From positions 1 to 64,000 of the forward strand of contig JAOMEO010000005.1 of assembly GCA_028345955.1 (NCBI GenBank): DNA of 64,000 nucleotides. Reading direction: 5' to 3'. The notes under the pieces were generated by a model, which saw nothing but the letters and a program-made list of their open reading frames with translations, had not been told where the DNA came from and made no database searches. Positions 2,754 through 32,013 of this stretch are shown here, piece after piece. The position numbers and the translations under genes were made by a program. Origin of the DNA: Candidatus Thioglobus sp. (lineage in GTDB: Bacteria; Pseudomonadota; Gammaproteobacteria; PS1; Pseudothioglobaceae). Every line of letters starts with the position of its first letter. Positions within the stretch are counted from its first letter, which is position 1.

Positions 2754-4214
2754 TTATCTATTTATTATTTTTTGAAAAATTGAATAATCGAATGCCATAA
2801 AGTAATTTTCACAATAATTAATTATATTATTGCTATCCCATGGCGTATCGTCCTCAATTACCCCCTTAAACTCTTTAACACTGCTTACAATCTTTCTATC
2901 TTTGCCAACACTATGTAGAAAATCAATTGTTAAATCACTATCATCTGATAAATATATTGGAATAAGATTCCCATAGATAGCCTCAATTATTGCAGTTGTT
3001 CCCCTATAAAGTGCAAAGCTTGACCTAGAAATATCTTCTGATAATGATAGGTTAGAAATTATAATATTATTGGGCAAATCTTCCGCCTTAATTGACATAT
3101 ATGCTAAAACTTTCTCAAAAGAGATTACTGGATGCAGCCTCCATATAAAGTTAATATCTGGCAAGACGTTGGCACACATAATGGAAAAATTAAATAACAT
3201 GTCGCACTCTTCAACAACACCCTCTGGTATTACAAGGCAAATTTTATCTTTTTTTCTATTTTTAACTTTAAGTTGAGATAATGATTTACTAGAGCCTAGA
3301 ACTAACAATTCTGTATGGGATTTTTCCAACGCTTTTTGTAATAAAGCATGAGTTATCGTTCCAGAACACAATATTAAATCCGGATCATATTTTTTTCCAA
3401 GTGGCCTGGCAATTGAATGTGCCATTTTTGTTATGACTGAATGTTGATAACCAATACGCAATAAATCTGGGTCATACTGATATACAACTCCATATATCAC
3501 TCTTTCCCATGAATGACCCTCATAAGTTGTTATCACCGCCTTTGGTTTAAAAGAGTTTAATATTGTATTAACTTGCTTACCAAGCCTTAAAGCAAATAGA
3601 GCGCCACTAAATCCACTAGGCTTAGAAGAGAATTTTAAAACTTGCCTCAATAAGCCTTTCTCTCTATAAGAAGAAATTCTTATTAAAATTAGTTCCTTAA
3701 TCAAGCCAAGAATAATTTTAGCCTCACCACTAAAATTTAACTTTTTTGGAAGAATAACTTTAAAAACCTTAGAGTTATCTAACTTCTTTGATAAAACTTC
3801 AGAATCCTTGTTGGTGTGATTAATTAACACAACTAATGGATTAATCTTATGATTTAAATAACTAGGTATATCATAAAAATAAAAATCGTTATTATTTAAA
3901 TGGTCAGCGTTAACTAAATGCGAAATAATAATCGTATCAAAATTTTTGCAATAAGGTAAATCTAGTTTCTGAGAAGAGTTAAATGAAAGGATATTTAATA
4001 TTTTCTGAAATAGTCCACTTTTTTCTGATGATTTCTTTAATTGTACAGATGCATTACCAAAAACATTTTCAAATAAAGTCTGGTACTGCTTCAACAATAC
4101 AGGATGCTCTTTCATTACATGTAGCTTAGGAATTGAGACTCTATAAAAATTCTTATCTTTGTTTATAGCTTCATCGCATGCCTTACATAATAATTTATAT
4201 TGACTACTATCCAC
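2754..4214 (-). CDS. putative surface-carbohydrate biosynthesis protein, GT-B-like
   Basis: This is a 486-residue protein that I do not recognise with certainty. It starts at a GTG; no ATG occurs until about codon 34. The middle holds AVITTYEGHSWERVIYG, IGYQHSVITKMAH and PDLILCSGTITHALL, and the C-terminal half has FIWRLHPVISFEKVLAY and SSFALYRGTTAIIEAIYG. Those blocks recall the nucleotide-binding half of GT-B transferases and sialyl/Kdo-transferase-like 'surface carbohydrate biosynthesis' families. It directly precedes pseB's neighbour and follows the kdsB-like gene, so a transferase for the CMP-sugar made upstream is plausible. No transmembrane segment is seen. Confidence 0.5.
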   Translation of the reverse strand: MDSSQYKLLCKACDEAINKDKNFYRVSIPKLHVMKEHPVLLKQYQTLFENVFGNASVQLKKSSEKSGLFQKILNILSFNSSQKLDLPYCKNFDTIIISHLVNADHLNNNDFYFYDIPSYLNHKINPLVVLINHTNKDSEVLSKKLDNSKVFKVILPKKLNFSGEAKIILGLIKELILIRISSYREKGLLRQVLKFSSKPSGFSGALFALRLGKQVNTILNSFKPKAVITTYEGHSWERVIYGVVYQYDPDLLRIGYQHSVITKMAHSIARPLGKKYDPDLILCSGTITHALLQKALEKSHTELLVLGSSKSLSQLKVKNRKKDKICLVIPEGVVEECDMLFNFSIMCANVLPDINFIWRLHPVISFEKVLAYMSIKAEDLPNNIIISNLSLSEDISRSSFALYRGTTAIIEAIYGNLIPIYLSDDSDLTIDFLHSVGKDRKIVSSVKEFKGVIEDDTPWDSNNIINYCENYFMAFDYSIFQKIINR

Positions 4215-4249: not shown

Positions 4250-5014
4250 CTACAATAAAATTTGTTTCAGAATATAACTTTGTTCTGGATCACTCATCAA
4301 GCGCTCCAAAACAATATCAACTTCATGAGGTTCATTAATCGAAGGAAGGCTTGGAGTAACAGGAACAGAATATAAATCATATCCACTTTCAATAATTCTC
4401 ATCTGTTCAATAAACTCAGCAGATTCAATTTCTGATTCTGACAATTGATTAAGCTTTAGTAAAAAATCTTTTCTATAAGCTATAACACCTAAAATTTTAC
4501 GAACAAATTTTTGCTGGATTTTTATATCGCTAAAATATGGCGTTTTTCGAAAACAATGCATAATTTTATTATCTTTTGTAACAGCACATTTTACAAAAGA
4601 ATACAAATCTAATTCATCTTCTATATTGATACTGCCAGTAGCATTCCACGCATCTTTTTCGGGATTTTTCTTGATACTGTGGATTATGCTATCAATATGT
4701 TGAGGCAATAATAGAGGCTCATCCCCTTGCAATAATAATGCATGACTACAATCATAATTGTTAACTACTTCAGCAACACGACTGGTGCCGTTTTTATGAC
4801 TATTGTTTGTCATGATAACCTTTCCGTCATAAAACTCTATAGCATCTGCAATTTCAACATCGCAAGTGGCAACGAGCACATCATCCAACTCTTTAGATAA
4901 TAATGCTCTACGTCGCACATGTTCGATCATTGGCAAGCCATGTATATCAAATAGAATTTTTTTTGGAAAACGAATAGACGCCATATGAGCAGGTATTATG
5001 CCGACAATCTTCAC
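4250..5014 (-). CDS. kdsB: CMP-Kdo synthetase-like cytidylyltransferase (KdsB family, divergent)
   Basis: This protein has 254 residues when started at the GTG at 5014, whose GTGA overlaps the TGA of the upstream SDR. A TTG 18 bases further upstream is also open but less likely. IIPAHMASIRFPKK (residues 6-19) matches the nucleotide-binding start of KdsB (usually IPARyaStRlPgK), SHKNGTSRVAE (72-82) matches the DHxSGTDRxAE block, and QGDEP (96-100) is intact. The Arg of the IPAR motif is His here and the following Gly is Lys, so it is not a textbook KdsB. It should transfer CMP to a 3-deoxy-ulosonic acid. As the last gene of the kdsA-like/CBS/aldolase/SDR set, its substrate may differ from Kdo. 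Confidence 0.75.
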   Translation of the reverse strand: MKIVGIIPAHMASIRFPKKILFDIHGLPMIEHVRRRALLSKELDDVLVATCDVEIADAIEFYDGKVIMTNNSHKNGTSRVAEVVNNYDCSHALLLQGDEPLLLPQHIDSIIHSIKKNPEKDAWNATGSINIEDELDLYSFVKCAVTKDNKIMHCFRKTPYFSDIKIQQKFVRKILGVIAYRKDFLLKLNQLSESEIESAEFIEQMRIIESGYDLYSVPVTPSLPSINEPHEVDIVLERLMSDPEQSYILKQILL

Positions 5015-5757
5015 TGAGGAAATACTCCACAATCAACATTAATACACTGCCCCGTAATTGCAGAAGATGCGTCAGAAGCTAAAAATAAGCACGCTTTGCC
5101 AATCTGCCCACCTTGTGGCAATTCGGGCAATGCTGCTTGCGTCTTACGGAAGTTATCGATAAACCCCTCTATATTGCCGTATGCAGGAGATTCAGGTTCG
5201 TCTAATGCCTCTATTAAGCCATCTGTTGGTACAATAACTGGACAAACAGCATTAACTCTAATATTTTTCTTGCCAACTTCTTTTGACAATGACTGAGTAA
5301 TAGCATTAACACCAAATTTAGATGCGCAGTAAGCCGAGTTATTGCTACTACCTCGTTTACCTGCAATACTAGAAATATTAACAATATTTGCACCTGACTC
5401 CATTATCGCTAATGCCGATTTACAGCCCCAAAAAACACCTTTAAGGTTTGTATCTAATACATTGCTTAGGAATTCCTCATCAATGTTGCCAATGCTGCGC
5501 CACGCTGAAAACCCTGCATTATTAATATAAGTATCCAATCTTCCAGTTTTTTCTAAAGCAGCTTTAACTAAATTTTGATGATCTTTTTCAAACTTAACAT
5601 TGGTTTTAATAAAATGTACACTGTCGCCAAGCTCCGCTAAAGTCCTAGTTTTCTCTCTAGCACCTACAAATACTTCGTAACCTGCTTTGGCAAACACTCT
5701 AGTAATATCCAAGCCAATACCCTTGTTACCGCCTGTAATAATAACTGTTTTTTTCAT
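5011..5757 (-). CDS. SDR family oxidoreductase (classical)
   Basis: This is a 248-residue classical short-chain dehydrogenase: cofactor motif TGGNKGIG at residues 8-15, NNAG at 79-82, catalytic Ser around 129-130 and YCASK at 143-147, ending in the usual ITGQCINVDCG strand. It overlaps the kdsB-like gene by GTGA and lies 13 bases after another SDR. In legionaminic-acid loci of Campylobacter an SDR (PtmA) accompanies the synthase genes, but its step is not settled. Here the neighbours are an aldolase and a Kdo-synthase-like gene, so oxidation or reduction of a sugar acid or aldehyde precursor is an inference only. Confidence 0.78.
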   Translation of the reverse strand: MKKTVIITGGNKGIGLDITRVFAKAGYEVFVGAREKTRTLAELGDSVHFIKTNVKFEKDHQNLVKAALEKTGRLDTYINNAGFSAWRSIGNIDEEFLSNVLDTNLKGVFWGCKSALAIMESGANIVNISSIAGKRGSSNNSAYCASKFGVNAITQSLSKEVGKKNIRVNAVCPVIVPTDGLIEALDEPESPAYGNIEGFIDNFRKTQAALPELPQGGQIGKACLFLASDASSAITGQCINVDCGVFPQ

Positions 5758-5770
5758 TTTTTAAATATCC

Positions 5771-6547
5771 TTAAATTGTCATACAACTAAAACCGCCATC
5801 AATTGCAATCTCGGCACCTGTTACAAAACTAGAAGCGTCAGAAGCCAACCAAATTATTGCGCCAATTAACTCATCAGGAGTGCCGTATCTATTCATTGGC
5901 GTATGTCCTAAAATTGACTTCTCTCTTTCTTTAGTAATAAAATTTTTCTGGTTCCATTCTGTTGGTAAAAATCCAGGGCGAATAGCATTAACACGCACTC
6001 CATCTGTCGCCCATTCTCTAGCTAAATTTTGAGTCAAATTTTTAATGCCTGCCTTAGCAACAGAATAAGTAAATGCTTTCGATAAAGGAGGGTCCGCAGA
6101 AGCAGAAGATATGTTAATAATAGAGCCAGATTGCTCCTTAACCATATACTCACCAAATACTTGACACCCTAAAAAAGTGCCAGTTATTTGTGATTCCATC
6201 ACGCCTTGCCACTCTTCTAAACTCAAATCAAAAAATGGCGTAGGGCAATTAGTTCCTGCACCATTTACCAATATATTAGCACCACCAAACTTATCTAAAA
6301 CAGCATTAAGCGATTCAATGTGTTGTTGCTTACTGGTAACATCAATAGCCAACGCAATCGCCTCACCACCAGCGCTGATAATCTCATCAGCTACAAACTG
6401 TGCCTTTTCTAACCTTAGATCTAATACAGCAACTTTTACACCAGCATTAGCTAAACCAATTGCCATAGCGCTACACAAATATCCTCCTCCACCAGTAACC
6501 ACTGCTACTTGACCTTGTATATCAAATAATTTATCCGTATAACTCAT
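5771..6547 (-). CDS. SDR family oxidoreductase (classical)
   Basis: This protein has 258 residues from the ATG at 6547, chosen because its ATGA overlaps the stop of the upstream aldolase; a longer open frame to 6595 would run deep into that gene. TGGGGYLC (18-25) is an SDR cofactor motif with an unusual YLC in place of the common GIG. NGAG is at 95-98, SS at 147-148 and YSVAK at 161-165, and the end reads SFVTGAEIAIDGG. It resembles gluconate 5-dehydrogenase-type SDRs, which act on keto/hydroxy sugar acids. Coupling to an HpcH/HpaI aldolase suggests the two act on the same deoxy-keto-acid pathway. Confidence 0.78.
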   Translation of the reverse strand: MSYTDKLFDIQGQVAVVTGGGGYLCSAMAIGLANAGVKVAVLDLRLEKAQFVADEIISAGGEAIALAIDVTSKQQHIESLNAVLDKFGGANILVNGAGTNCPTPFFDLSLEEWQGVMESQITGTFLGCQVFGEYMVKEQSGSIINISSASADPPLSKAFTYSVAKAGIKNLTQNLAREWATDGVRVNAIRPGFLPTEWNQKNFITKEREKSILGHTPMNRYGTPDELIGAIIWLASDASSFVTGAEIAIDGGFSCMTI

Positions 6548-7332
6548 TGTTTCAATTTCTCCATAATGTTCTTCATTTTTTCTGCCCAACGCCATAATAC
6601 AAATAAATCAGATCCAAGAATCGCAAAAGTGTAGCCCAAATCAAATAAATCCTCAATTGCCTTTTCAGTTGTATCAGAAACTTGAGTACCACAACTTTTT
6701 TGATATTTCTCACATGCCTTAATCACTTTCTTTGAAGCCTCGATTACACTAGGATGATTGGTTTGTCCTGGAATACCTAACGAACCTGACAAATCCATTG
6801 GTCCAATCATTACACCATCTACCTCATCAAACTCAAGTAAATCATCGATGTTGTTAACTGCCTCTATAGACTCAATTTGAATAATAAAACTTGTAGATTC
6901 ATTCCATTCACTAAAATATTCATTCAATGAGAAGCCATAATCATGCGCACGATTAACTCCATAACTCCTATTTCCAATTGGAGGGTAGTAAATATTCTGA
7001 ATTATATTTTGCAATTCTTCTTTATTATTAACCATCTGAATTAACATGCCATCAGCGCCAGACTCCAGTAAAGGTTTTATCCAGTCGTTAGAGTGGGAGA
7101 CGGGTCTAGGCAGGCATGGTACACCTTGTGCTTGAGAAGCGGCAATAATTCTCTGTGCCTGCTCTGTCGTTATGGTTGAATGTTCCATATCAATAGCAAT
7201 AAAATCAAAGCCAGCCAATGCAAATGTTTCGGTAATCGATGGGTGGGCGTAGGATACCCATCCTGCAAACATTTTTTCACGGTTTTTCATTTTTTTCTTT
7301 AAAGTAATTCTTTGTTCAGTATTTTTATTCAT
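6544..7332 (-). CDS. HpcH/HpaI family 2-keto-3-deoxy-acid aldolase
   Basis: This is a 262-residue class II (metal-dependent) aldolase of the HpcH/HpaI/citrate-lyase-beta fold. The DMEH block (48-51, metal/base His), Arg76 in PRP, the Glu in IQIES (about 154) and IGPMDLSGSLG with Asp180 match the catalytic residues of this family. Such enzymes join or split pyruvate and an aldehyde to give 2-keto-3-deoxy acids. It is the first of three genes linked by 4-base overlaps (aldolase, SDR, and then a second SDR and kdsB-like gene close behind). It is odd to find a catabolic-type aldolase in a polysaccharide operon, and it may supply or remodel an ulosonic acid. Confidence 0.8.
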   Translation of the reverse strand: MNKNTEQRITLKKKMKNREKMFAGWVSYAHPSITETFALAGFDFIAIDMEHSTITTEQAQRIIAASQAQGVPCLPRPVSHSNDWIKPLLESGADGMLIQMVNNKEELQNIIQNIYYPPIGNRSYGVNRAHDYGFSLNEYFSEWNESTSFIIQIESIEAVNNIDDLLEFDEVDGVMIGPMDLSGSLGIPGQTNHPSVIEASKKVIKACEKYQKSCGTQVSDTTEKAIEDLFDLGYTFAILGSDLFVLWRWAEKMKNIMEKLKQ

Positions 7333-7406: not shown

Positions 7407-8192
7407 TTATCCATGAAATACATCCATATTATCATTATTAAAACAAAACACCACAGGACGGGCCATAATCATTTTGCTTTTGATAATCAATCGACTGACG
7501 ATTGATAAATCCTCAATAGAAAATACGAAAACTTGCTTAGGCTTTAGTGTAGTACACTTTTCTATTTGTTTTATACCATTATAATCCACTACTTGAAATA
7601 TAGTTTTTTTATTGACTGAACTGGCATTAGTCAATGCAATTTCATAGGATTTATTTGGTTCTAATAAATATTGTAGATTATATAAACGACCCAATAAACT
7701 ACTACCACACAGAGGCATCAAACTATCATCAATCGCATCTAAATTTCCATGTACATAAGAGCGTAATGGTGTATTTTTATACTGATAACTCACGTAACCA
7801 CGCTCTGCGATGAATGACTCCAGACTCAATACACTATCCGGGACTTTCTGATGAAAAATACTGAAAGTTCCATAATCGCAAGGCAATTGGTCTAATGCTG
7901 ATAATAATTTAGAAATTTCCAAAACCTGCCTATGCAAACCATTTAACTCAACAGATTGCTGATGAAATTGATTACCATTATCATCAAAAAAAACAATGTC
8001 AACTTGATGCTCATCATTATCGCCAAATAAACTCGAAAGATCTAGCAATTCAAAATATGTATTCCATTCTTGATGATCTCGCCAAATAAACAAATCGCTA
8101 ATTACTGCTAGGGGATCGCTTGGTTTGTTTGTCAATGGTTGACTCAAAACCCATGGCGCTTTTTTTGCTTTTCTTAATAAATTACTTATCAT
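7407..8192 (-). CDS. hypothetical protein of polysaccharide island (pair member B)
   Basis: This is a 261-residue protein without a signal peptide or membrane span. I cannot assign a family. The composition looks beta-rich and soluble, with stretches such as FELLDLSSLFG, HQVDIVFFDDNGNQ and RSYVHGNLDAI. The start ATG overlaps the end of the upstream unknown gene by 11 bases, so the two are probably translated together and may act as a pair. The flanking genes (an FkbM-type methyltransferase upstream, a deoxy-acid aldolase downstream) place it in surface-glycan synthesis, but no catalytic motif can be named. Confidence 0.62.
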   Translation of the reverse strand: MISNLLRKAKKAPWVLSQPLTNKPSDPLAVISDLFIWRDHQEWNTYFELLDLSSLFGDNDEHQVDIVFFDDNGNQFHQQSVELNGLHRQVLEISKLLSALDQLPCDYGTFSIFHQKVPDSVLSLESFIAERGYVSYQYKNTPLRSYVHGNLDAIDDSLMPLCGSSLLGRLYNLQYLLEPNKSYEIALTNASSVNKKTIFQVVDYNGIKQIEKCTTLKPKQVFVFSIEDLSIVSRLIIKSKMIMARPVVFCFNNDNMDVFHG

Positions 8193-8973
8193 TTCTAAGT
8201 TGTGAAAACCAATATTGTTTTAACTGTTTTTGTACATCAAAACGATTCCCGTGTACTACAAATGAAGCGGGTGGATGGGTATGTTCTAAACTCAATAATT
8301 TGCCCTTCTTGTAGCTTGAAAAATATAAAGGTATTGCTGCCATTTCACGACATATAACAACTGGTAAGCTTTGCTCGTCAAACTCTGCATCACCCAGTGA
8401 GATAATGTTGACTCTGTTACTATAGGCATCTTGTTTCTTTTTCATCAACTTGCTATGTGCATCGTAAATTTCCACCTCTACCATTCTATTTTGCGGTAAC
8501 TTTTCCAAATTCAAAAGCAACAAGTAGTTTTCAATATCTACACCGAATTGCAAAAACGGCGAGAATGTTAATAATGATGCTTGTGGTGGAAAAGGGTTTA
8601 CTTCTCCTTGGTAACTGGTTGTGGCAGAATCAGACTTTAAACTCAGTGTTGAACGGTACGCTGGCACAACTGTATGGTTGCAATTCAGAACAGGCAATTC
8701 CTTACTAGTTCTTGGCAACATAGATTTACTGAGTGACAATAACGGTAAAGCACCTTCAGGAATTAAATTAGTAACGTCATTATTGTCAATTTTTTTATAT
8801 GCCTGGTAATCCAGATTACCTAAAGTCAAGCTACGCCATATACCATCTTGAGTAAAAGTTAAATTTACATATTGATTAACCTTGTCCGCAGGTTCCCAAT
8901 TATTTGGCGGGAAATTATAGAGTGTAGTTTCTCCTGAACAGTATGGTGCATTTAAAATGGGATAATAAGACAT
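8182..8973 (-). CDS. hypothetical protein of polysaccharide island (pair member A)
   Basis: This is a 263-residue protein of unknown function. Conserved-looking blocks are TTSYQGEVNPFPPQASLL, PFLQFGVDIENYLLLLNLE and SLEHTHPPASFVVHGNRF near the C-terminus. It has no membrane span and no signal peptide. Its ATG overlaps the TAA of the upstream FkbM gene (TAATG), and its own end overlaps the next unknown gene by 11 bases. That tight packing makes it a real gene. I have an impression of similar sequences next to glycan loci of marine bacteria, but this is recollection, not a database result. Confidence 0.65.
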   Translation of the reverse strand: MSYYPILNAPYCSGETTLYNFPPNNWEPADKVNQYVNLTFTQDGIWRSLTLGNLDYQAYKKIDNNDVTNLIPEGALPLLSLSKSMLPRTSKELPVLNCNHTVVPAYRSTLSLKSDSATTSYQGEVNPFPPQASLLTFSPFLQFGVDIENYLLLLNLEKLPQNRMVEVEIYDAHSKLMKKKQDAYSNRVNIISLGDAEFDEQSLPVVICREMAAIPLYFSSYKKGKLLSLEHTHPPASFVVHGNRFDVQKQLKQYWFSQLRNDK

Positions 8974-10783: not shown

Positions 10784-11197
10784 TTAACTTTCTAATAATG
10801 CCTTAACTGCAGGGTGAAGGTGTAATAGACCGATTAATTTATCGTTATCAACAACCGGCAAGTCCCAAACTTGCTTCTTTTCCATCAAATCAACTGCATC
10901 AATCAAAGTTACATCACTTGAAATGGTAATCGGATTTTTGATTGCCTGATTAATCGCATCATCAATGAAAAAGGCGGACAAAGGTTTCTGCACAGAAAGT
11001 AGTTTGCGCCTAACATCGCCATCAGTGATAATTCCTAGCAATTGATCTTCATTATCCGTAATACATGCAATACCTAAGCGAAAGTCATCCATTTTTTCTA
11101 ATGCCGCTTTTAAAATGGTAGTTTTTGTCACAATGGGAAAGCTATTGGTATCTAACATCACCTCACTAACAATCATTTTTTTATTCTGGATGTACAT
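10784..11197 (-). CDS. stand-alone CBS-pair protein resembling the C-terminus of KdsD
   Basis: This protein has 137 residues from the ATG at 11197, chosen for its GGAG site seven bases upstream; the coding region then overlaps the end of the kdsA-like gene by 17 bases. It holds two CBS motifs: GIACITDNEDQLLGIITDGD with VRRKL following, and DLPVVDNDKLIGLLHLH. These resemble the regulatory half of arabinose-5-phosphate isomerase (KdsD/KpsF), but the N-terminal SIS isomerase domain is absent. CBS pairs bind adenosine or CMP-type ligands and regulate partner enzymes. It may regulate the adjacent synthase or activation step, or it may be a remnant that gained a separate role. Confidence 0.78.
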   Translation of the reverse strand: MYIQNKKMIVSEVMLDTNSFPIVTKTTILKAALEKMDDFRLGIACITDNEDQLLGIITDGDVRRKLLSVQKPLSAFFIDDAINQAIKNPITISSDVTLIDAVDLMEKKQVWDLPVVDNDKLIGLLHLHPAVKALLES

Positions 11198-12059
11198 TAT
11201 CTTCTCCAAATTTTTCCAATAATTCTAGGCGGGTTTCATGCACTATTTTTGCCTGATGCAAAACATTTTCTAAATATTGTAAATCTAATACAGTGTTGGC
11301 ATCTGACAGAGCGGCTTTTGGATTGTTGTGCACTTCCATAAATAGTGCATTAACACCACAACCCACTGCAGCACGAACTAAATATGGAATAAACTCTCTT
11401 TGACCCCCAGATATATTGCCCATTGAAGTTGGCAACTGAACAGAGTGTGTTGCATCAAAGCACACAGGATATCCAATTTTCTGCATAATTGGGAAACTAG
11501 TCATGTCATTAACCAACGCACCATAGCCCAAAAAAGTACCTCTATCTGTTAGAATTATTTGCTTGCACCCATGAGCCTCTAACTTTCTGACCGAATTTTT
11601 CATATTCCATGGACTCATAAACTGGCCTTTTTTCAAATGCACGGGCCTACCAGTTTCTGCTGCCGCTCGCAATATCGAAGTTTGCCTGCACAAATAAGCT
11701 GGCACTTGAACCATATCACAAACTTCACCCGTAGATTTAGCCCATGCAGCATCCGAAAAATCAGAAACCACAGGTACTCTAAACTCATCTCTAACATCAG
11801 ATAATATCTGTAATCCACTCTCTAAGCCTGTACCATGAAAACTTTCAGGTGACGATCTACAATCTTTATCATAACAAGACTTATATACCCAAGGTACATT
11901 TAATTTCTCGCATATTTCCCCAATAGAATCAGCCATGAAAAATGCATGATCTTTCGACTCAATAGCGCAAGGTCCTCCAAAAAAAGCTAACGGCAGATTA
12001 TCGCCCACTTCAACTTTGTTCACTTTATCATAACCAATAGTAATAAATTTATTTTTCAT
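11181..12059 (-). CDS. kdsA: 3-deoxy-8-phosphooctulonate synthase-like enzyme (KdsA family, variant motif)
   Basis: This is a 292-residue TIM-barrel synthase. GGPCAIES (28-35) carries the Cys found in metal-dependent KDO8P synthases, and QVPAYLCRQTSILRAA, KKGQFMSPWNM, ILTDRGTFLGYG and CFDATHSVQLP match the family throughout. The block normally written KANRSS is KDCRSS here (residues 65-70), so the Asn that distinguishes KDO8P synthase from DAHP synthase is Cys. The family condenses PEP with arabinose-5-phosphate, and the change may mean a different aldose-phosphate. Its end overlaps a CBS-pair gene, and its start overlaps the preceding methyltransferase by 11 bases. It probably is not the housekeeping kdsA. 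Confidence 0.85.
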   Translation of the reverse strand: MKNKFITIGYDKVNKVEVGDNLPLAFFGGPCAIESKDHAFFMADSIGEICEKLNVPWVYKSCYDKDCRSSPESFHGTGLESGLQILSDVRDEFRVPVVSDFSDAAWAKSTGEVCDMVQVPAYLCRQTSILRAAAETGRPVHLKKGQFMSPWNMKNSVRKLEAHGCKQIILTDRGTFLGYGALVNDMTSFPIMQKIGYPVCFDATHSVQLPTSMGNISGGQREFIPYLVRAAVGCGVNALFMEVHNNPKAALSDANTVLDLQYLENVLHQAKIVHETRLELLEKFGEDNVHPE

Positions 12060-16159: not shown

Positions 16160-17518
16160 TTAAATCCAATCATTTTGATGCCATATTTTTTCATCCCACT
16201 GCTTAGTTTTAAAACTATATACATTAACTACGGTATTGCCAATATCATCATTGCATGCAACGCCCAAATGACTTAATGCCTTTTTGTTAATGGTATGTGC
16301 ATCAAAAACATATGTCCATTGATTGCCTTCGTCATTAATAAAGTCATCTCGATAATATCTGCCCTCTAAAGTGCGTAATGCTAAAAACGGTTGGGGACCC
16401 CATATATCAACATCAGTTGTTACTCGTAAATATTCATCATTGAACTTAAAAGTAAATTTAGGAGGTTGTTTTTTCTCCATATTGAGAGCAGCCCTAAAAC
16501 CCTCAACTACATTTACCCAACGAAAATCAATATCATTATATTTTTTTTGAGTCTTCTTAACTAGATCAACAAACTCTTCAATTTCTGGAACCATGTCTCT
16601 AAAATCATGATTTGTAACTCCGACCAATACATTTTTACCGCTCTCTGCATCACTAAAAGCGGCATCTAATTCTTTCTCGTTAATGTTGTTATATCGTGTC
16701 CTCAAGTTCAGACATCGTCCAATCATACGTTTAAGTCCACCTTCTTTTCGATGATCATAAAAGTCTGGGTTATATATCCGCCAATCAGTTGGTGCGCCAC
16801 GCCAATCAACAAAACGCCCTGGTATTGGATATATTTTCTTAATGTCTTCAGGCTCGTCTGTAAACTGATGCGCTAGATCGAATGGCATCCAAGCCTCTAG
16901 CCACAAATTGATATCGTAAGTCTCATAATGCCCACCAGGTCGATTGGCAACTGGAAACCATTTGTGGTCTATGATCCTTCTAGCAATTATTTCATTGTGT
17001 AGCAAGTCTAAGTTATAACCGCATGATTGCCTATGGGCATCACGTGAAAGACTAGGCGGATGAAAATGCCAGTTTATTTGATCACGAGGAACATTGTTAT
17101 CAATCAATAATTGTTCATAATGTTCGTAAACAGCATGAAAACCCATTGCTCTTCGACGGGGGTTGTTTTCATAATTAACATGGTCCATACAATGCCAAGA
17201 TAAAATATAGGGTTGGCCATCGCTATCAGACAAGTTACTACGCCAATCATCAGACATAATTGTATCGTGCATTTTATCAATCCTGTCCCAAGTCCCTAAA
17301 TATTGGTCCACCATGTCTTCACGAACAATTTCGGCAACTAATCTTTCTTTTCCTTTTAGGTCAATTTCATGATTTCTTAATTTTTTTAGCGTTGCTATTG
17401 ATGGCTCTAATTGAATGCCATAATGATCATATATTCTCTCAAAAGTGGCCTTTAAACTCTCAAACATAGGCCCTTCCGTATCAACAGCATGTGCTATATA
17501 AACAGTCCCTTTAGTCAC
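16160..17518 (-). CDS. polysaccharide-deacetylase-like barrel protein, function unknown
   Basis: This protein has 452 residues from a GTG with a strong AAGGAG site seven bases upstream. YIAHAVDTEGPMFE (7-20) places an Asp-Thr-Glu motif at the end of the first strand, as in distant NodB/glycoside-hydrolase barrels. Further blocks are SWHCMDHVNY, NWHFHPPSLSRDAHRQSCGY and GVTNHDFRDM, with His residues that could bind metal. There is no signal peptide. The neighbours are a sulfotransferase and a zinc-ribbon methyltransferase. I infer a sugar-modifying hydrolase or deacetylase and do not know the substrate. Confidence 0.6.
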   Translation of the reverse strand: MTKGTVYIAHAVDTEGPMFESLKATFERIYDHYGIQLEPSIATLKKLRNHEIDLKGKERLVAEIVREDMVDQYLGTWDRIDKMHDTIMSDDWRSNLSDSDGQPYILSWHCMDHVNYENNPRRRAMGFHAVYEHYEQLLIDNNVPRDQINWHFHPPSLSRDAHRQSCGYNLDLLHNEIIARRIIDHKWFPVANRPGGHYETYDINLWLEAWMPFDLAHQFTDEPEDIKKIYPIPGRFVDWRGAPTDWRIYNPDFYDHRKEGGLKRMIGRCLNLRTRYNNINEKELDAAFSDAESGKNVLVGVTNHDFRDMVPEIEEFVDLVKKTQKKYNDIDFRWVNVVEGFRAALNMEKKQPPKFTFKFNDEYLRVTTDVDIWGPQPFLALRTLEGRYYRDDFINDEGNQWTYVFDAHTINKKALSHLGVACNDDIGNTVVNVYSFKTKQWDEKIWHQNDWI

Positions 17519-18726: not shown

Positions 18727-20646
18727 TTATAGTCTTAGCCCAAGAAGTTTAACAAATATTTTTACAAAATCTTTGTCTACTGACTCATTATTAATAACTC
18801 TTGAATCAACGATACTTTTATCATCAGTCCAACGTTCAATTTTTTCAAAAAGAGATTTTTTCTCACTTATTTGCAATTTTTTATACTCTAATGGATAGCA
18901 ATTATCATACATATTCAATGGATCATAATAAGCTCCAGGCCTATGAACCAAATTTGATAATAATACGCCGGATGTATATGGAGCACCAATACAACAATCT
19001 GCCATGGCTATAGGAATATATGGGTCAATATTATATTTAGTAAGTATTACTTTTCCTCCCTTTACGTATTTCCCATCTGGATTGATTAATTCAAGCATTT
19101 CATTACTAATAACAAATTTTTCCGCCGCCACACGTCTTTTAGGTTTATATATAATTCTCAAGTTAGGAAAAGTGTTGATTGCCTCGCATAAATGACTAAA
19201 GAAGGCCTTTTGCATCTCCAGAGTAAATCGATTAGGTCCCGACCTAATGCCAGAAATTAGATTGGCATGTTTAGTATCCATATCAAAAACCCCAAGCCAT
19301 AACAAATCTTTGTTACTACATTCTAAAAGTTGCATATCTTCCCGTGCTTTAATCGGAGACTTAAAAATCCAATCAGAATTACCTGGCATAATAGGTCCAG
19401 TTACACGGAAAACTGGAGCGTATTCTGGTGGCTGTAAACACCTATCTCTATATAATTTTATGTCTTCATGGTACCAAGCCCATTGTTCATCGCATAAAAA
19501 TATTGATTGAACCAACCTCTTTCTGTCTGTAACACCTTGTAAATTACTCTTCTTTACAGGAATCACTCCGGCCTGGGAGTATTGCCATATAATGGTTCGA
19601 ATATTTGATGACTTTGCAATTGCATTAAGTGGACCGCAACTACTAAGTCCACTAGTTGTGCCAATTATAGTATCAATACCATAAGTTTTTGCAATACAAT
19701 ATAGTGGAGCCCCTTTTGCGATATAACTTGGTATTTTCCTGCGAATAACTGATGAACCAATAAATATTCCTGTTCTAATAAAAGTGAAAACAATATCTCT
19801 CACCATATTCCATCTTATAGAATATGGTATTAAGTGCATGTATTTTCCATCCACTATCCAATTTATATCCTTACTTTCTAACCACTTACAAACTTCATAT
19901 GAAGGCTCCACAGGAAGAACATATAAAATCTTACCAATATCAACTGAAATATGATGCGCCAAAAAAGCAAAATTACATTCTAATAAATTATTCGTTATTT
20001 CATTTACACTTATATCCTTCCATAAAATTCGGAAAGCCTTTTTATTTATTGCTTTAGTCTTCCTATAATAAAAAAAAGATTTAATAATAGGTTTTATTAA
20101 AATAAATAAATTTTCTGATAAGAAATTAATCTTATCCATAAATGTAAAAATATTAAATACTTTATTAATTTTTATTTTCCTATGGCATTCTCCCATACCC
20201 TTCATAGTATTCTTGTATACATTTTCAACAATGGTAACATTTGAAACCTCTGAATTAGATTTCTGCCATTCATCAACCATATATGTAAATTGATAATAAG
20301 CCTCAAAATCTTCAGCCATTTCAGCCAGTGCTACCGATGTAAAATCAACGGTTAAATTATCGAATCTTTCTATAACATCAAAGTCTTTCCAAGAATGGTT
20401 TTTAAGTATGGAAGAGAACTTATCGTATGCATCTGATGATATAAAGTTCCATTCCATTTGTCCTGACTTAAAGATTTTCTCAGGCTCTAGAAGATGAAAA
20501 AAATATAGGAAAGATTTGGGTATCTTGCTACTCTTCCAATATGCAACTGGTTTGAAAAAATTAACAAAAAAAACTATTGGAAGGTTGAATATATTTATCT
20601 CAAAAAAAACTAGCCAGTTTTTATTGTGTCGATTAAATACTGTCAT
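18727..20646 (-). CDS. large putative surface-polysaccharide transferase (GT-B-like C-terminus)
   Basis: This protein has 639 residues from the ATG at 20646, one base after the legF stop; an in-frame TTG at 20688 would overlap legF and is less likely. I do not recognise the family firmly. The C-terminal half contains DTIIGTTSGLSSCGPLNAIA, IIWQYSQAGVIP, FRVTGPIMPG, LRIIYKPKRR and CIGAPYTSGVLLSNLVHRPG. These recall GT-B or CDP-glycerol-phosphotransferase-like folds. The N-terminal 300 residues are helix-rich and basic. It is the last gene of the legionaminate/phosphoramidate block, so a transferase that uses one of those activated donors is a reasonable guess. Confidence 0.55.
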   Translation of the reverse strand: MTVFNRHNKNWLVFFEINIFNLPIVFFVNFFKPVAYWKSSKIPKSFLYFFHLLEPEKIFKSGQMEWNFISSDAYDKFSSILKNHSWKDFDVIERFDNLTVDFTSVALAEMAEDFEAYYQFTYMVDEWQKSNSEVSNVTIVENVYKNTMKGMGECHRKIKINKVFNIFTFMDKINFLSENLFILIKPIIKSFFYYRKTKAINKKAFRILWKDISVNEITNNLLECNFAFLAHHISVDIGKILYVLPVEPSYEVCKWLESKDINWIVDGKYMHLIPYSIRWNMVRDIVFTFIRTGIFIGSSVIRRKIPSYIAKGAPLYCIAKTYGIDTIIGTTSGLSSCGPLNAIAKSSNIRTIIWQYSQAGVIPVKKSNLQGVTDRKRLVQSIFLCDEQWAWYHEDIKLYRDRCLQPPEYAPVFRVTGPIMPGNSDWIFKSPIKAREDMQLLECSNKDLLWLGVFDMDTKHANLISGIRSGPNRFTLEMQKAFFSHLCEAINTFPNLRIIYKPKRRVAAEKFVISNEMLELINPDGKYVKGGKVILTKYNIDPYIPIAMADCCIGAPYTSGVLLSNLVHRPGAYYDPLNMYDNCYPLEYKKLQISEKKSLFEKIERWTDDKSIVDSRVINNESVDKDFVKIFVKLLGLRL

Positions 20647-20647
20647 A

Positions 20648-21361
20648 TTATTCTTTGTTAAGAATTTTACTTTTAAGAATTTCTTCAATTATTAAGAAGT
20701 CTGTCATTGTGTCTAAATCTAATGAACTTTCTTGATCCATTAGAAACACTCCACAATTTTCTATACTTATAACTGAAGAATTATTCTGAAGAAACCTTCG
20801 ATCTGTTATATATATTGCTCCATTAATCTCATAAGCGGAAGGAAGTTGTTGCCTACTCAAGTTAAAAGGATTAACTGAGCTTTCAAGATTTAATAAAGGC
20901 TTTGCTCTGCCTTTTTCAACTTTAAGCATCCACCATGGTGGGTATCCTTTTCTTACACTAACTAAAGAGTCATATTTACCCTTAAAGAACTGTTTTAATG
21001 ATTGCTCAATATGAGAACTTTCTCTTAAAGGTGATGTTGGTTGTAAAGTAACAACAACATCCACTTTTTTTCCTTCTTGGATCTCGATGTAACTGACAGC
21101 GTGCTCAATAACAGGGGGGGTTTTTGTTATATCTGTAGATAAATATTCCGGCCTTAGAAAAGGAACTTCAGCACCCTCATTTTGTGCAATTTCAGCAATT
21201 TCCTCATTATCTGTAGAACAAATAACCCTAACTATTGAATCGCACTTTAATGCAGCATCTATAGTATATGAAATTAATGGCCTCCCATTTAATCTCTTGA
21301 TATTTTTGCCATGGAGACGTTTTGACCCCCCTCTAGCAGGTATTATGGCAACAATATTCAC
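20648..21361 (-). CDS. legF: CMP-N,N'-diacetyllegionaminic acid synthase (CMP-nonulosonate cytidylyltransferase)
   Basis: This is a 237-residue NeuA-type enzyme. IIPARGGSKRLHGKNIKRL (6-24) is the CTP-binding signature, STDNEEIA and VVTLQPTSPLR are the conserved nucleotide and sugar blocks, and LDLDTMTDF closes the fold. It activates legionaminic acid (or another nonulosonate) with CTP. It starts with GTG at 21361, whose GTGA overlaps the stop of a 40-codon ORF upstream. It is separated from the other leg genes by the phosphoramidate-type cassette. A run of seven C on the coding strand (21114-21120) lies in codons for KTPPV and could be slippage-prone. Confidence 0.85.
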   Translation of the reverse strand: MNIVAIIPARGGSKRLHGKNIKRLNGRPLISYTIDAALKCDSIVRVICSTDNEEIAEIAQNEGAEVPFLRPEYLSTDITKTPPVIEHAVSYIEIQEGKKVDVVVTLQPTSPLRESSHIEQSLKQFFKGKYDSLVSVRKGYPPWWMLKVEKGRAKPLLNLESSVNPFNLSRQQLPSAYEINGAIYITDRRFLQNNSSVISIENCGVFLMDQESSLDLDTMTDFLIIEEILKSKILNKE

Positions 21362-24032: not shown

Positions 24033-25244
24033 TTAATAAACATTATTTAAAAATTTAGCGATTTGACTTGCAACCATTTTATTACCAATCTCTGAAAAAT
24101 GTCCTCCGTAACCATCTTCAATATAAATTTCATCCATACTTAGATAGTTAATATGTTCAGTCATATCCAAGACAGGAATTTTTTCATTCAATCGTCTATA
24201 AAAATCTCTATAAGGTGAGGAGTTAGATTCATTCATTATCTGAATATCAATCAATTGAGGCATGAGCAGAATTATTGGTTTTTGATTTCGCCTATGTGCT
24301 TCATCCCTGAATTCTAATATAATTTTTTCTAAAAGATTGCAAGCATAGTCATCTTGATACATCATGTGTGCATCTTGCACATTACTTTTCATAATTTTTG
24401 CAAATGGTGCATTTTCATAAAACTCGTTATTAATTTTTAATATATTAAAAATTTTTCTTCTTATTAATAAATACAATAGAATTGTATTTCTCTTAAAATT
24501 ATTAAAATAACTGAGTAAGTAAGATCCTCTAAATTGAAGAGATTTAAACTTACGTTTGTAAAATACGTCATGCTTCTGTACAGCTTTTATTGTGCTATGT
24601 ATGTTGTCTAAATCCTTCAAACCTTCCGATAGACATCTGTGTAATAATAATTTTTCATTTTTCAGTGAAAATCTAGGCTTAAATGCAAATATATTTCCAA
24701 ATTCTAAATAATGTTTCCAATAAGATTGAATCCTGCATATTGTTTCTGGTACAAATCCTAAAATCACAATTTTTGTAGTTAGCAACTCCATTCTTTTATA
24801 GTATAGAAGAGCTTGATCAATGCCATAATTACCCACACCAAAATTTAAAACATGTTCATTTAATTCTTTACCTAAATAAGACTGCCATGTCTGATCATCC
24901 TCAACTTGCCTGCAAAATGTATATGAATCACCAAATGTAGATATCGATGGCTCTCCATTTTTGAAGCTATATCTTGACCCAATTGAATCTATATGATACT
25001 TAATCTCTCCATTTTTACCTAGCTCAATACCAGTCGTATTAGGCTTTCTAACCCAACCTAATTCTTTATCAAAACTATTATTAAAAAATGATTCTAATGC
25101 GCCTTTATTAAAATTTGGCAAATCATCTTCCTCTGTTATTATCCATTGGAACTCATTACGAAAATGTCTGACAATTCCTCGAAGGACAAACTCAATAATA
25201 ACAAAAAATAAAAATAAAAATAAAAATAAAAATACAATAAACAT
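24033..25244 (-). CDS. membrane-anchored SGNH/GDSL-type hydrolase-like protein
   Basis: This is a 403-residue protein. Residues 2-22 form one hydrophobic span made largely of alternating Phe and Leu, encoded by a hexanucleotide repeat. STFGDSYTF (102-110) gives the GDS nucleophile block, NFGVGNYGIDQALLY the Gly/Asn block, and DGYGGHFSEIGN (377-388) the Asp/His end of the triad. It lies after the CysC-like kinase gene (TAATG overlap) and before the hydrolase gene, so it is inside the phosphoramidate-type cassette, yet C. jejuni has no obvious counterpart. It may add or remove acyl or phosphoryl groups on the glycan at the membrane. Confidence 0.68.
   Translation of the reverse strand: MFIVFLFLFLFLFFVIIEFVLRGIVRHFRNEFQWIITEEDDLPNFNKGALESFFNNSFDKELGWVRKPNTTGIELGKNGEIKYHIDSIGSRYSFKNGEPSISTFGDSYTFCRQVEDDQTWQSYLGKELNEHVLNFGVGNYGIDQALLYYKRMELLTTKIVILGFVPETICRIQSYWKHYLEFGNIFAFKPRFSLKNEKLLLHRCLSEGLKDLDNIHSTIKAVQKHDVFYKRKFKSLQFRGSYLLSYFNNFKRNTILLYLLIRRKIFNILKINNEFYENAPFAKIMKSNVQDAHMMYQDDYACNLLEKIILEFRDEAHRRNQKPIILLMPQLIDIQIMNESNSSPYRDFYRRLNEKIPVLDMTEHINYLSMDEIYIEDGYGGHFSEIGNKMVASQIAKFLNNVY
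25204..25233. repeat. tandem hexanucleotide repeat, five copies of AAAAAT
   Basis: Five exact AAAAAT units stand in a row. On the coding (minus) strand they read (ATTTTT)n and encode Leu-Phe alternations in the membrane anchor of the SGNH protein. Loss or gain of a unit would keep the frame and change the span by two residues. Confidence 0.85.
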
Positions 25245-25765
25245 TATTTCAGTATTCTATCTATACCCTTTAGTGCCAATATCTCCTCTAGCATTAAATC
25301 AAAATTTTCCGTTTCTATATTATTTTCAATCACAAGATCGGGATTCTCTGGCTCTAGAAAAGGTATATCAACACCGACAACATTTTTCAATTTTCCTGCC
25401 TTTGCTTGAGAGTATAAATTATTTACATCTCTTTTTTCAAGAGCGTCAATTGATGCTTTTAGATAAACTTCTTGATAATCAATTATATTTTCCCTGTTCC
25501 ATGCCTGCCACTGTGGAAAAATAGATAGAACAGCCGCAATTACATGAATGTCTTGATCAGATAAAAATTTTGACAGATGGGACAATCTTTCAGCATTTAT
25601 CCTCCTCCCTTCGATTGTGTGATCAACATCATTTCCAAAAAGCTCTCTTAGAATGTCGCCATCCAATAATACCAAATTATTTATTTTTGGCTTCAATTTG
25701 TTATAAAGTAATTTACTTAAAGTTGTTTTTCCTGCCCTTGAAAGGCCTATTATCCAAGTTACCAT
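25244..25765 (-). CDS. APS-kinase-like protein (CysC family); candidate CDP-amidate 3'-kinase
   Basis: This protein has 173 residues from the ATG at 25765, ten bases after the glutamine-kinase stop; an open extension to 25861 runs into that gene and is rejected. GLSRAGKTT (7-15) is the P-loop, which in true APS kinases is usually GLSGSGKST. LLDGDILRELFG matches the DGD block, VYLKASIDALEKRDVNNLY the family's VYVxxpLxxxExRD region. In C. jejuni the CysC-like Cj1415 phosphorylates the 3'-hydroxyl of cytidine diphosphoramidate. The neighbours argue for that activity over PAPS synthesis, although a sulfotransferase does lie 9 kb downstream. Confidence 0.75.
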   Translation of the reverse strand: MVTWIIGLSRAGKTTLSKLLYNKLKPKINNLVLLDGDILRELFGNDVDHTIEGRRINAERLSHLSKFLSDQDIHVIAAVLSIFPQWQAWNRENIIDYQEVYLKASIDALEKRDVNNLYSQAKAGKLKNVVGVDIPFLEPENPDLVIENNIETENFDLMLEEILALKGIDRILK

Positions 25766-25775
25766 AGTTTTATCC

Positions 25776-28151
25776 TTAATGTATCGGGTTAATAAGTCCA
25801 GCTGCACAATCAAGATGTACCTGGTTAGATTTAAGTATTTGTTCGTAATGCTGCTCTCCACAACCTATTGCTGCAGGAATCCCAAACTCCGCACAACGGA
25901 TTGCCATATGTGAGTTTACCCCACCATATTTAGTAATTAGCCCTACAATTTTTTGTGAAAATATCCAATCAAATCCAGGATCTGCCCCCTCAATAATTAC
26001 CACTTTACCTTCCAATGACACTTTATTAATCTCTGTATTTAGAACCTCACAAGGTGCGGTAATTTTTTTATGAGTAATAAAATTTGGATGACTAACTTGA
26101 AAAGGGACAATATACACACCTGCTTGATCTACTAATAACTGAGGTAGTCGAATTGCAACACTAATATTATGCTTATCCATCTCCTTTTCAGATATTGCTC
26201 TTAATTGTTCTTTAATACTTTCTTTGTTGATATTCTTTATCACATTTAATAGAGAATCAAGTGGGACGTGAGATACTTCATCTCGGCTTAGGCCATTTTT
26301 TTCAGAAAATTTTGCAATCAACTCTAGTATATCGCTAATTGACTTGCTAAAGATAAATTTACCATACTCTCTACCAATAATAGCATTACGAATATAGCTC
26401 AAAAGATTGTCTGCATTAAATTCTGCAAAACCTTCTTCAATTAGCAAGGCTTCAACTTGTTGATGTTGATGTTGTGAAAATGAAAATGGTTCTGTATATC
26501 CATTTGACTGAAATGATTTTGTGCCGCTAAATAACCTTTTCATCTGATCATATCGTGGCGATCTAATATCGTAGGTTCCGGGACGCAAATGACCATAGAT
26601 TTGCATAAACTTGGCACTAGACATGTCACCATCTTGAAAGGCGCTCATATCATCTACTAACTCACTGGCTACAGTCTGCACACTCTGTTGAATTTTATCA
26701 ACCTCAGCATTAGTTATAATACCCCTATGTTTGAGTGACAAAAGTAGCGTTTTAGCAATAAATCCATGTCTAGCTAAAATAGAGAATGGTGTTGTCCCTA
26801 GTTTTATACAATCGTCAATCATCGTAAAGAGTATTGACATCTTATTATTAAAACAGGTTTCGTCTGTCAACTCCACCTGTTTTGTTTTCAACTCATTAAT
26901 CTTATTGAGGGCATTATTAATTGAGCCACCGCCCCCTTCTAAAAGCAACTGTTTAGTCTGTCGACGATGTGCCTCTCTGAATTGATCTTTTTCAGTATCA
27001 TTCAATACATCGCCGATAAGCATCTCTATCTTATAGTCAATATCAAAACTGTAGGTAGTAATTGCAATTTCAAATTCTATCTTATCATGCAGTTCTGGTG
27101 ATGATTTCAGTCTATCAATCCAATGGTTGACTAATTTTTCTGCAATATTATTCGAAATAGTGCTGGGTAGAAAAGAGTGGAAACTAAGACGGGTATCAAT
27201 AAATGGCTGTCCTGCAAGAGAAATCATCAACGGTTGGTCTGTTGGAACCATATATCCCATAATAGCCCTTGCAGTTTGCCATACTTTATCTGTTATCAAA
27301 GCTTGATAAAGTGATAGTGCTAAAGCACGTGGCGCCCTACCAATCATCTCTACTGGATTCCAATCTGGCATCTGCCCCAAAACTGTAGTTTTACCGTAAC
27401 TGTTGCTACATTTTTTAAAGCGATCCGCAACAAGCATCTCTACTTCACTTAAGGTTGTGTCAATTCTAGTTGCAACTCTACTGTTCCAATTAGGTTGAGT
27501 GGTAATTGCTCGAACTTGTAATAAATATGGCGTTAAATCTTCACCCAATGCAAATTCTATATCTAAAAAGTTACTCTCCATAATTGACTCTAGTTCTTGA
27601 ATAGCTTGTAGTAAGCTTTTAAAGCGTTCTGAATGAAGTCTATCAGTTGAATTTCTATGGATATAAAGGGTGCGGTTTGAATATTTCCCCTCGCCTGAAG
27701 TTACGGTATCAGTGAGTCCTGATTGGTCATCATAGTTAATAACATAATAAGGAGCGCCTGTATTTAAGTCGTGAGTGAAAATAACGCCACTCATACTGGT
27801 ATTTTTCACCATTTCTTGAATAATTACCCTATCATCTGTCAGAATTGGGCGTTTTTTTCTATAACTAGAAATTACAACATTTATTGCAGCCGTTATGCTT
27901 TGTGAATCATCTGAAGCAACATTCAATACTGAATCATATTCACCTGCCGCCGAACTTGATTGGGTATCTTCATCTGCTGCAGCTGATCTGATTGCTATTA
28001 ATTTCGATTTAATAGATTTTTTTAAATTTTTATGCTCTATTCCGTCTATCGAAATAAACTTTTTGGCACTTACTGACAAAAAATTAGGAATGAAAAAAAT
28101 ACGTAACTTAGATCTTAGATTTTCTAGTGTTTGTAATTTTGAGCTAATCAC
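25776..28151 (-). CDS. PEP-synthase-like ATP-grasp/phosphohistidine kinase; candidate L-glutamine kinase
   Basis: This protein has 791 residues from a GTG (the next Met is far downstream). The N-terminal ATP-grasp part shows IAIRSAAADEDTQSSSAAGE and VIIQEMVKNTSMSGVIFTHD, as in PEP synthase/PPDK. The C-terminal mobile domain reads GLITKYGGVNSHMAIRCAEF with catalytic His748, followed by GIPAAIGCG. There is no PEP-binding barrel. This two-domain layout with a large middle region is that of Cj1418, which phosphorylates the amide nitrogen of L-glutamine as the first step of capsular phosphoramidate synthesis. The following genes encode the CysC-like, hydrolase and nucleotidyltransferase partners. 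Confidence 0.82.
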   Translation of the reverse strand: MISSKLQTLENLRSKLRIFFIPNFLSVSAKKFISIDGIEHKNLKKSIKSKLIAIRSAAADEDTQSSSAAGEYDSVLNVASDDSQSITAAINVVISSYRKKRPILTDDRVIIQEMVKNTSMSGVIFTHDLNTGAPYYVINYDDQSGLTDTVTSGEGKYSNRTLYIHRNSTDRLHSERFKSLLQAIQELESIMESNFLDIEFALGEDLTPYLLQVRAITTQPNWNSRVATRIDTTLSEVEMLVADRFKKCSNSYGKTTVLGQMPDWNPVEMIGRAPRALALSLYQALITDKVWQTARAIMGYMVPTDQPLMISLAGQPFIDTRLSFHSFLPSTISNNIAEKLVNHWIDRLKSSPELHDKIEFEIAITTYSFDIDYKIEMLIGDVLNDTEKDQFREAHRRQTKQLLLEGGGGSINNALNKINELKTKQVELTDETCFNNKMSILFTMIDDCIKLGTTPFSILARHGFIAKTLLLSLKHRGIITNAEVDKIQQSVQTVASELVDDMSAFQDGDMSSAKFMQIYGHLRPGTYDIRSPRYDQMKRLFSGTKSFQSNGYTEPFSFSQHQHQQVEALLIEEGFAEFNADNLLSYIRNAIIGREYGKFIFSKSISDILELIAKFSEKNGLSRDEVSHVPLDSLLNVIKNINKESIKEQLRAISEKEMDKHNISVAIRLPQLLVDQAGVYIVPFQVSHPNFITHKKITAPCEVLNTEINKVSLEGKVVIIEGADPGFDWIFSQKIVGLITKYGGVNSHMAIRCAEFGIPAAIGCGEQHYEQILKSNQVHLDCAAGLINPIH

Positions 28152-29271: not shown

Positions 29272-29273
29272 AG

Positions 29274-31438: not shown

Positions 31439-32013
31439 TTAACAACACTCCCAGCTTTTATAAAACTATCCTTTGCAATAGAAACTCCTTGCTTAGTTGT
31501 TGAATTACTACCAACAAAACTACGTTCGCCAATCAAAACACTACCATTAATTATTGCCTGTGTTGAGATATGACAATGAGATGAAATTGTGCAATCGTGT
31601 TCAATCAAAGCCTTAGAATTAATAATACAATTTTCTCCTACTATTGTGTTCGCATTAATCAGCGCATCATGCATTACAACACTGCCTTTACCAACCTTAG
31701 AATGTTTTGAAACATAAGCTCTTGGTGAAATAATTATTGGTATTTTGAATCCAGCTTTAATAGCTAAATTAAATAATTCTATTCTAGGATGAGGAGAATC
31801 AATATGTCCTAGTGTAACAATAGCATTACCATATTGTTTGGCCAGATATGTTAATTCACTATCATTCCCTATTACCTTATACCCTAAAATTTCTTGACCA
31901 AAAAGTTCGGGCTTGTCAATGATACCAGCAATTTTGTATTTACCCTGCTGTTCAATAACATCAATAACTGACCTACAATGCCCGCCACCACCAATTAGCA
32001 CAATAGTATTCAT
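31435..32013 (-). CDS. legH: NeuD/PglD-type N-acetyltransferase (LegH candidate)
   Basis: This is a 192-residue protein. IVLIGGGGHCRSVIDVIEQQ (4-23) is the nucleotide-sugar-binding Rossmann start of the PglD/NeuD family. Hexapeptide repeats (KVGKGSVVMHDALINANTIV, then NCIINSKALIEHDC) form a left-handed beta-helix, with the catalytic His in IEHD. In this pathway it would N-acetylate the 4-amino group made by LegC. It overlaps both neighbours by 4 bases (ATGA). Confidence 0.82.
   Translation of the reverse strand: MNTIVLIGGGGHCRSVIDVIEQQGKYKIAGIIDKPELFGQEILGYKVIGNDSELTYLAKQYGNAIVTLGHIDSPHPRIELFNLAIKAGFKIPIIISPRAYVSKHSKVGKGSVVMHDALINANTIVGENCIINSKALIEHDCTISSHCHISTQAIINGSVLIGERSFVGSNSTTKQGVSIAKDSFIKAGSVVK

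Follow-up and report, generated by a model that had tools for sequence, protein, structure and literature searches.

KDCRSS-bearing KdsA-like synthases, an apparently overlooked branch of a sugar-acid-making enzyme

The KdsA-like synthase encoded in a 64,000-nucleotide stretch of Candidatus Thioglobus DNA (hereafter the window) probably belongs to a separate, horizontally spreading branch of KdsA in which the sugar acceptor has changed, and which would supply surface glycans with a 3-deoxy-2-ulosonic acid rather than lipid A with Kdo. A different sugar acid is the probable product because the branch dispenses with the usual source enzyme for the sugar partner. This KDC type, named for the altered residues of its active-site motif, appears to be an overlooked branch of a sugar-acid-making enzyme. 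In the literature searched, mostly non-subscription, the text strings KANRSS and KDCRSS are absent, and titles and abstract openings yielded no description of the branch; an earlier description is possible.

The synthase and its signature

The synthase is read from an open reading frame whose translation includes ...WVYKSCYDKDCRSSPESFHGTG...:

11181..12059, minus strand: KDC-type KdsA-like synthase of 292 aa, with an ATG start and KDCRSS at 11850-11867

The sequence-only reading placed KDCRSS at residues 65-70 of a KdsA-like protein, and the motif is present there in the 292-aa frame; the span it assigned (11850-11885) contains the motif but also takes in YKSCYD. Its observation that GGPCAIES is retained holds as well, the metal Cys being residue 31. 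KDO8P synthase equivalog models from NCBIfam accept the protein (NF003543, 336 bits against a cut-off of 242; TIGR01362, 317.3 against 314). An AlphaFold2 model (mean pLDDT 91.5, pTM 0.91) has KDO8P synthases as its closest solved folds in Foldseek, at 46% identity and a TM score of 0.94 by target length, and the best 50 matches are all KDO8P synthase or 2-dehydro-3-deoxyphosphooctonate aldolase entries. Comparison with DAHP and NeuB-type synthases, both named in the same reading, proved uninformative. The nearest DAHP model gives 123.3 bits against a cut-off of 335 and the KPRTS motif is absent; no NeuB or PseI model matched at E 0.001. Membership of either family was rejected. NeuB-type nonulosonate synthases, which also join PEP to an aldose, form a separate family, one member of which is encoded in the window locus (30443-31438).

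To place the motif, 77 KDC sequences (the window's, 75 from loci and one further Prochlorococcus sequence) were aligned with 33 canonical KdsA sequences (four from the initial loci, 22 second copies, six from the Prochlorococcus genus and E. coli K-12). The KDC type forms a single clade (FastTree support 0.85, stem 0.475). Residue 66 is Asp in 77/77 KDC sequences and Ala in 32/33 canonical ones; residue 67 is Cys in 72/77 (Ser in four, Gly in one) against Asn in 33/33. These positions are Ala47 and Asn48 in A. aeolicus numbering. In this comparison set the near-invariance ascribed to the Ala-Asn pair is borne out, the one exception being a KDNRSS sequence (L138), and the KANR motif with its invariant Asn is absent from the KDC type. 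Residue 102 (His83 in A. aeolicus) is Ser in 77/77 against His in 33/33, residue 62 (Ser43) is Cys in 77/77 against Ser in 33/33, and the loop after His185 carries T211 and S212 in 76/77 KDC sequences each, where canonical sequences mostly have GG. These counts omit L070, L081 and L082, whose synthase reading is broken or partial. The motif, which had been singled out as the site of change, is therefore part of it, but the change is wider and takes in residues 43 and 83 (now Cys and Ser), the GG to TS loop and other positions.

The KDNRSS exception (L138:1153-1977) comes from genome G012, where it is a second KdsA copy. It has Asp47 but retains Asn48 and His83, so Asp alone is not diagnostic of the branch.

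The catalytic residues C31, K60, K65, R68, S69, R125, K143, R173, H205, E242 and D253 are unchanged in 76/76 KDC sequences. Their A. aeolicus equivalents are C11, K41, K46, R49, S50, R106, K124, R154, H185, E222 and D233, which we take to be the metal, PEP and acceptor-phosphate residues; the numbering of C11, R106 and H185 agrees with PDB titles. All three sets are intact across the branch. The arabinose 5-phosphate (A5P) site is presumably lined by Asn48, Arg49, Ser50, Asp81, His83, Phe103 and Arg106, and from structures we take Ala47-Asn48 and His83 to be the residues that face the middle of the acceptor. A modelling study of the N. meningitidis enzyme describes contacts of Asn57 and Arg58 with the phosphate and hydroxyls of the ligand (PMC6650799), and we take this pair to be the Asn-Arg of the KAN(R) motif.

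Among the 80 related loci listed, 78 carry KD[CSG]RS[SA] (75 full-length, three fragments); the remaining two, L079 and L080, have the canonical KAN. Enrichment of the motif by ascertainment was rejected, since the search patterns excluded residues 65-70 and only three loci matched the pattern directly upstream in the protein (WVYKSCYD). A single-genome mutation or pseudogene was likewise dropped, as the motif is conserved in 77 sequences. Judged from the alignments, KDCRSS is conserved far beyond chance and marks a monophyletic KdsA subfamily rather than a private mutation.

Cassette partners and distribution

The other cassette genes of the window lie on the same strand:

10784..11209, minus strand: stand-alone CBS pair resembling the C-terminal half of KdsD, with no SIS domain; the gene begins within the end of the synthase gene
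7407..8973, minus strand: two proteins without a Pfam match (7407-8192 and 8182-8973), whose relatives lie close to the cassette in 9 loci and 13 loci respectively
6544..7332, minus strand: HpcH/HpaI-type pyruvate aldolase of 262 aa that retains its catalytic and metal residues; present in 43/80 loci listed
5771..6595, minus strand: SDR oxidoreductase near D-mannonate oxidoreductase models (274.8 bits against a cut-off of 281)
5011..5757, minus strand: second SDR oxidoreductase, by model matches
4250..5032, minus strand: divergent KdsB-like CMP transferase that reaches none of the KdsB cut-offs
2754..4214, minus strand: protein without a Pfam or NCBIfam match, often after the cassette (27 loci, any score); perhaps the cassette's glycosyltransferase

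A CBS-only protein of about 141 aa accompanies the synthase in 76/80 loci listed, and its gene starts no more than 120 bases from the synthase stop in 62 of these 76. It lies 1.3-4.5 kb away in L077 and L078, and none was seen in L055 and L082 (contig end or fragment). Its best match is the two CBS domains of KdsD/KpsF: the KdsD model TIGR00393 matches at positions 157-268 only and Pfam finds CBS alone, so that the C-terminal CBS pair is present and the SIS isomerase domain missing. The structural model is a plain CBS pair closest to those of arabinose-5-phosphate isomerases (4o9k, 3k2v and 3fna; Z 18.5, 18.2 and 17.8), a small lead over AcuB and others (Z at most 17.2). The 4o9k CBS pair is reported to have been solved with CMP-Kdo.

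KdsB-like genes occur in 65/80 loci listed and KdsC-like phosphatase genes in 16/80, both counts including the canonical locus L080. All cassette gene counts are lower bounds, as many contigs end early; clustering of genes (Louvain) and picking of reading frames were mechanical, and SDR counts, which include a few weak matches below 100 bits, are not used as numbers. The smallest cassette, in Prochlorococcus (L027), reads KdsC-KdsA-CBS-KdsB. The window's CMP transferase belongs to the same cytidylyltransferase family as KdsB, with 1gq9 as its best PDB match, but has GTSR where ordinary-looking KdsB has GTDR or GTER. Across loci with the aldolase, the KdsB-like motif is GT[STY]R in 34/37 (GTDR in one, unread in two), and in loci without it GTDR or GTER in 15/28. 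Residues that we take to be catalytic, H51, R76, E154 and D180 of the aldolase and Ser-Tyr-Lys of the SDRs, are kept at 97% or more of their alignments. Within one subclade of 51 tips, parsimony needs eight changes to account for where the HpaI aldolase is present; the two types of cassette are thus intermixed rather than two clean lineages. In the Rhodospirillales and Magnetococcales part of the branch, the synthase stands beside an ordinary-looking KdsB with GTDR. In eight loci from these groups (L032, L039, L046, L053, L059, L060, L061 and L063) a radical-SAM protein comes after the synthase, often with a TPR protein as well.

Scanning a species-genome collection with the window protein gave these 80 listed loci, out of 89 stretches matching a pattern. 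Full-length KDC members among them are 56-76% identical and located in surface-glycan loci of distant bacteria; by record title, the hosts include Alpha-, Beta-, Gamma- and Deltaproteobacteria, Bacteroidetes, Balneolaceae, Prochlorococcus, Leptospiraceae, Nitrospirae, Magnetococcales, Pelagibacter and others.

The window's own genome (1.25 Mb, 81% complete) encodes a second KdsA (C38:6883-7662) with KANRTS, 42% identical to the window synthase and flanked by genes that by eye resemble dapB and trpC. KDCRSS was also looked for in housekeeping Kdo synthases, a finding that would have spoken against the sequence-only reading, and was not found: of the second KdsA copies in 22 genomes, 21 have KAN and one has KDN. 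In 369 genomes drawn from the class, KdsA is found at E 1e-40 in 344, the KDC type in none of the 368 others (next best match 49% identity), and the cassette aldolase at E 1e-60 in the window's genome only. Because this genome alone in its class sample has the KDC type, and because the type is scattered over phyla, the distribution speaks for horizontal spread of the branch between distant bacteria. Viral contigs hold no close relative of the window synthase; plasmid and phage collections gave only matches below 60% identity, and judged by identity the branch was not found at that depth.

Co-occurrence with KdsD and WaaA

An enzyme that uses A5P should travel with KdsD or live beside it. Forty genomes were taken from the 80 listed loci, mostly draft assemblies without stated completeness; 22 have a canonical KdsA and 18 have the KDC type only. 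Full-length KdsD is present in 19/22 of the former and 0/18 of the latter (Fisher p 1.2e-8, or 4e-6 leaving out eight Prochlorococcus, values that overstate independence since the genomes are related to differing degrees). The 19 include one KdsD that scores below its curated cut-off (186.6 bits) and spans positions 1-257 (G031), and leave out a twentieth that is a fragment at a contig edge (G028).

The same pattern appears within a single genus. Across 41 Prochlorococcus-genus genomes, four carry the KDC type and six a canonical KdsA, with four further matches weak; a full KdsD lies near kdsA in 6/6 canonical genomes, and 0/4 KDC genomes have one, the CBS protein alone being present. One of these four (G044) is a single 1.92-Mb contig that holds the KDC synthase and the CBS-only protein and in which no KdsD, canonical KdsA or WaaA was found. 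The canonical kdsD, kdsA, kdsC and kdsB-like gene groups (L139-L144, in 6/41 genomes of the genus) include two KdsA copies that look metal-independent (GGxNVIES). In a control of canonical-only genomes from the window's class, chosen by the authors as mostly near-complete plus three of the window's family, full KdsD is found in 30/30, which brings KdsD to 55/58 genomes with canonical KdsA (19/22, 6/6 and 30/30). KdsD was not found in the window's 81%-complete assembly; its three family members have it.

WaaA, which attaches Kdo to lipid A, follows the same division: PF04413 matches in 21/22 genomes with canonical KdsA, in 2/18 KDC-only genomes and in the window's genome. The two KDC-only cases, G018 and G020, are Bacteroidetes assemblies, in which the KDC enzymes could feed Kdo to WaaA or the assemblies could be incomplete. 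From the KdsD and WaaA counts, canonical KdsA, KdsD and WaaA behave as one module and the KDC cassette as independent of it. We infer that KDC enzymes work without the KdsD arabinose-5-phosphate isomerase. GmhA-sized SIS proteins (193-211 aa) do occur in some KDC-only genomes, with many in G016, but apart from GlmS the set of SIS proteins varies from one such genome to the next.

Predicted product and alternative explanations

The KDC type shares with KdsA (A. aeolicus 1fwn and 2nxg; NF003543; TIGR01362) the fold, the metal Cys, His, Glu and Asp, the PEP and acceptor-phosphate residues, and KdsB- and KdsC-like partners. It differs in being accessory, horizontally spread, coupled to a CBS-only protein and apparently free of KdsD. 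With metal, PEP and phosphate residues intact, it would still join PEP to a phosphorylated aldose, presumably one drawn from central metabolism rather than the D-arabinose 5-phosphate made by KdsD. A five-carbon aldose phosphate of another configuration fits best, because the phosphate is gripped as before and the differences are confined to residues that face the sugar's middle; D-ribose 5-phosphate, which would yield the C5 epimer of Kdo, is a first guess and erythrose 4-phosphate a second. A four-carbon or larger acceptor is possible, and replacing Asn by Cys and His by Ser would also leave more space. The product may then be dephosphorylated by a KdsC-like phosphatase and CMP-activated by the KdsB-like enzyme. 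In cassettes of the window's type, the aldolase and two SDRs would remodel it further. Speculatively, the aldolase could invert C4 by cleaving and re-making the C3-C4 bond, and the SDRs could change stereochemistry by oxidising and then reducing one carbon. The CBS-only protein may be a remnant of KdsD, left after loss of the isomerase, that senses the CMP-activated product. Chances are about even for this fuller picture, in which a mobile cassette (found in Prochlorococcus, Bacteroidetes, Leptospiraceae, Nitrospirae and Pelagibacter) makes a non-Kdo 3-deoxy-ulosonic sugar without the isomerase, from a common pentose or tetrose phosphate bound in a reshaped acceptor pocket of the KdsA branch, with the regulatory half of KdsD as a CMP-sugar sensor.

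Several observations count against a changed acceptor and suit instead a role in making Kdo 8-phosphate from A5P, destined for surface glycans that contain Kdo, with A5P from the host KdsD or an unrecognised source and a motif that is neutral or tunes CBS regulation. All catalytic residues are kept, the equivalog models still accept the window synthase, the partners are KdsC- and KdsB-like, with an ordinary KdsB (GTDR) beside part of the branch, and WaaA is present in G018 and G020. A5P would be available in many hosts, as 22/40 genomes have a canonical KdsA and 19 of these KdsD. This alternative is nevertheless rather unlikely given the presence of KdsD in 0/18 KDC-only genomes and 0/4 within the genus, against 55/58 with canonical KdsA, and the replacement in 77/77 KDC sequences of Asn48 and His83, which are universal in the 33 canonical ones. 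The acceptor could also be A5P if the CBS-only protein, a fixed partner of the synthase, or another SIS protein replaced KdsD as isomerase, and the SIS proteins of KDC-only genomes could in principle make an aldose phosphate. We regard such a substitute as improbable: the CBS protein, of about 141 aa, is modelled as a plain CBS pair, SIS proteins other than GlmS are inconstant, and the matches listed for the 18 KDC-only genomes include none that covers the SIS part of the KdsD model.

Supply of erythrose 4-phosphate does not depend on KdsD, and a PDB title records it bound to A. aeolicus KDO8PS (1fwt). A DAHP-type synthase serving the shikimate pathway is still very improbable, given the low DAHP-model score, the missing KPRTS and partners that are KdsB- and KdsC-like and glycan genes rather than shikimate genes; erythrose 4-phosphate as the acceptor for a glycan sugar is compatible with the preferred explanation and is left open. 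It is scarcely credible that the protein is a housekeeping KdsA with a private change or in decay, or a regulatory copy without activity. The departure from the textbook motif is the sole support for this, and against it stand 77 conserved sequences, an intact active site and the separate KANRTS enzyme of the same genome. The earlier suggestion of altered acceptor choice, which the preferred explanation of a changed acceptor in a glycan-directed branch takes up, has indirect support from an independent direction, in that KDC genes occur in genomes without the A5P isomerase and canonical KdsA almost never does, while the identity of the acceptor stays conjectural.

Databases label KDC proteins as Kdo synthases and so attribute Kdo to many genomes from ocean and soil, Prochlorococcus among them, in which it is perhaps not made. 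Should the acceptor indeed differ, the branch would be a natural example of few residues setting acceptor choice in a much-studied family, and would point to a surface sugar that is widely traded and lies open to phages and grazers.

The window locus separately encodes a legionaminic-type nonulosonate pathway (20648-21361 and 28219-34119, minus strand) with LegB, LegC, acetyltransferase-like, NeuB-type, NeuC-type and CBS-plus-nucleotidyltransferase genes and a PseF-like CMP transferase that scores below its cut-off; two ulosonic acids may therefore enter the same glycan. Glycan-locus reading frames without a Pfam match, all on the minus strand, lie at 1563-2696, 2754-4214, 7407-8973, 16160-17518 and 18727-20688, and relatives of the proteins starting at 2754, 7407 and 8182 adjoin KDC cassettes in other bacteria. 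A PEP-synthase-like gene (25776-28151, minus strand, 791 aa), which matches the uncharacterised NCBIfam model PRK05849 at 831 against 501 bits, overlaps an adenylyl-sulfate-kinase-like gene (25244-25861).
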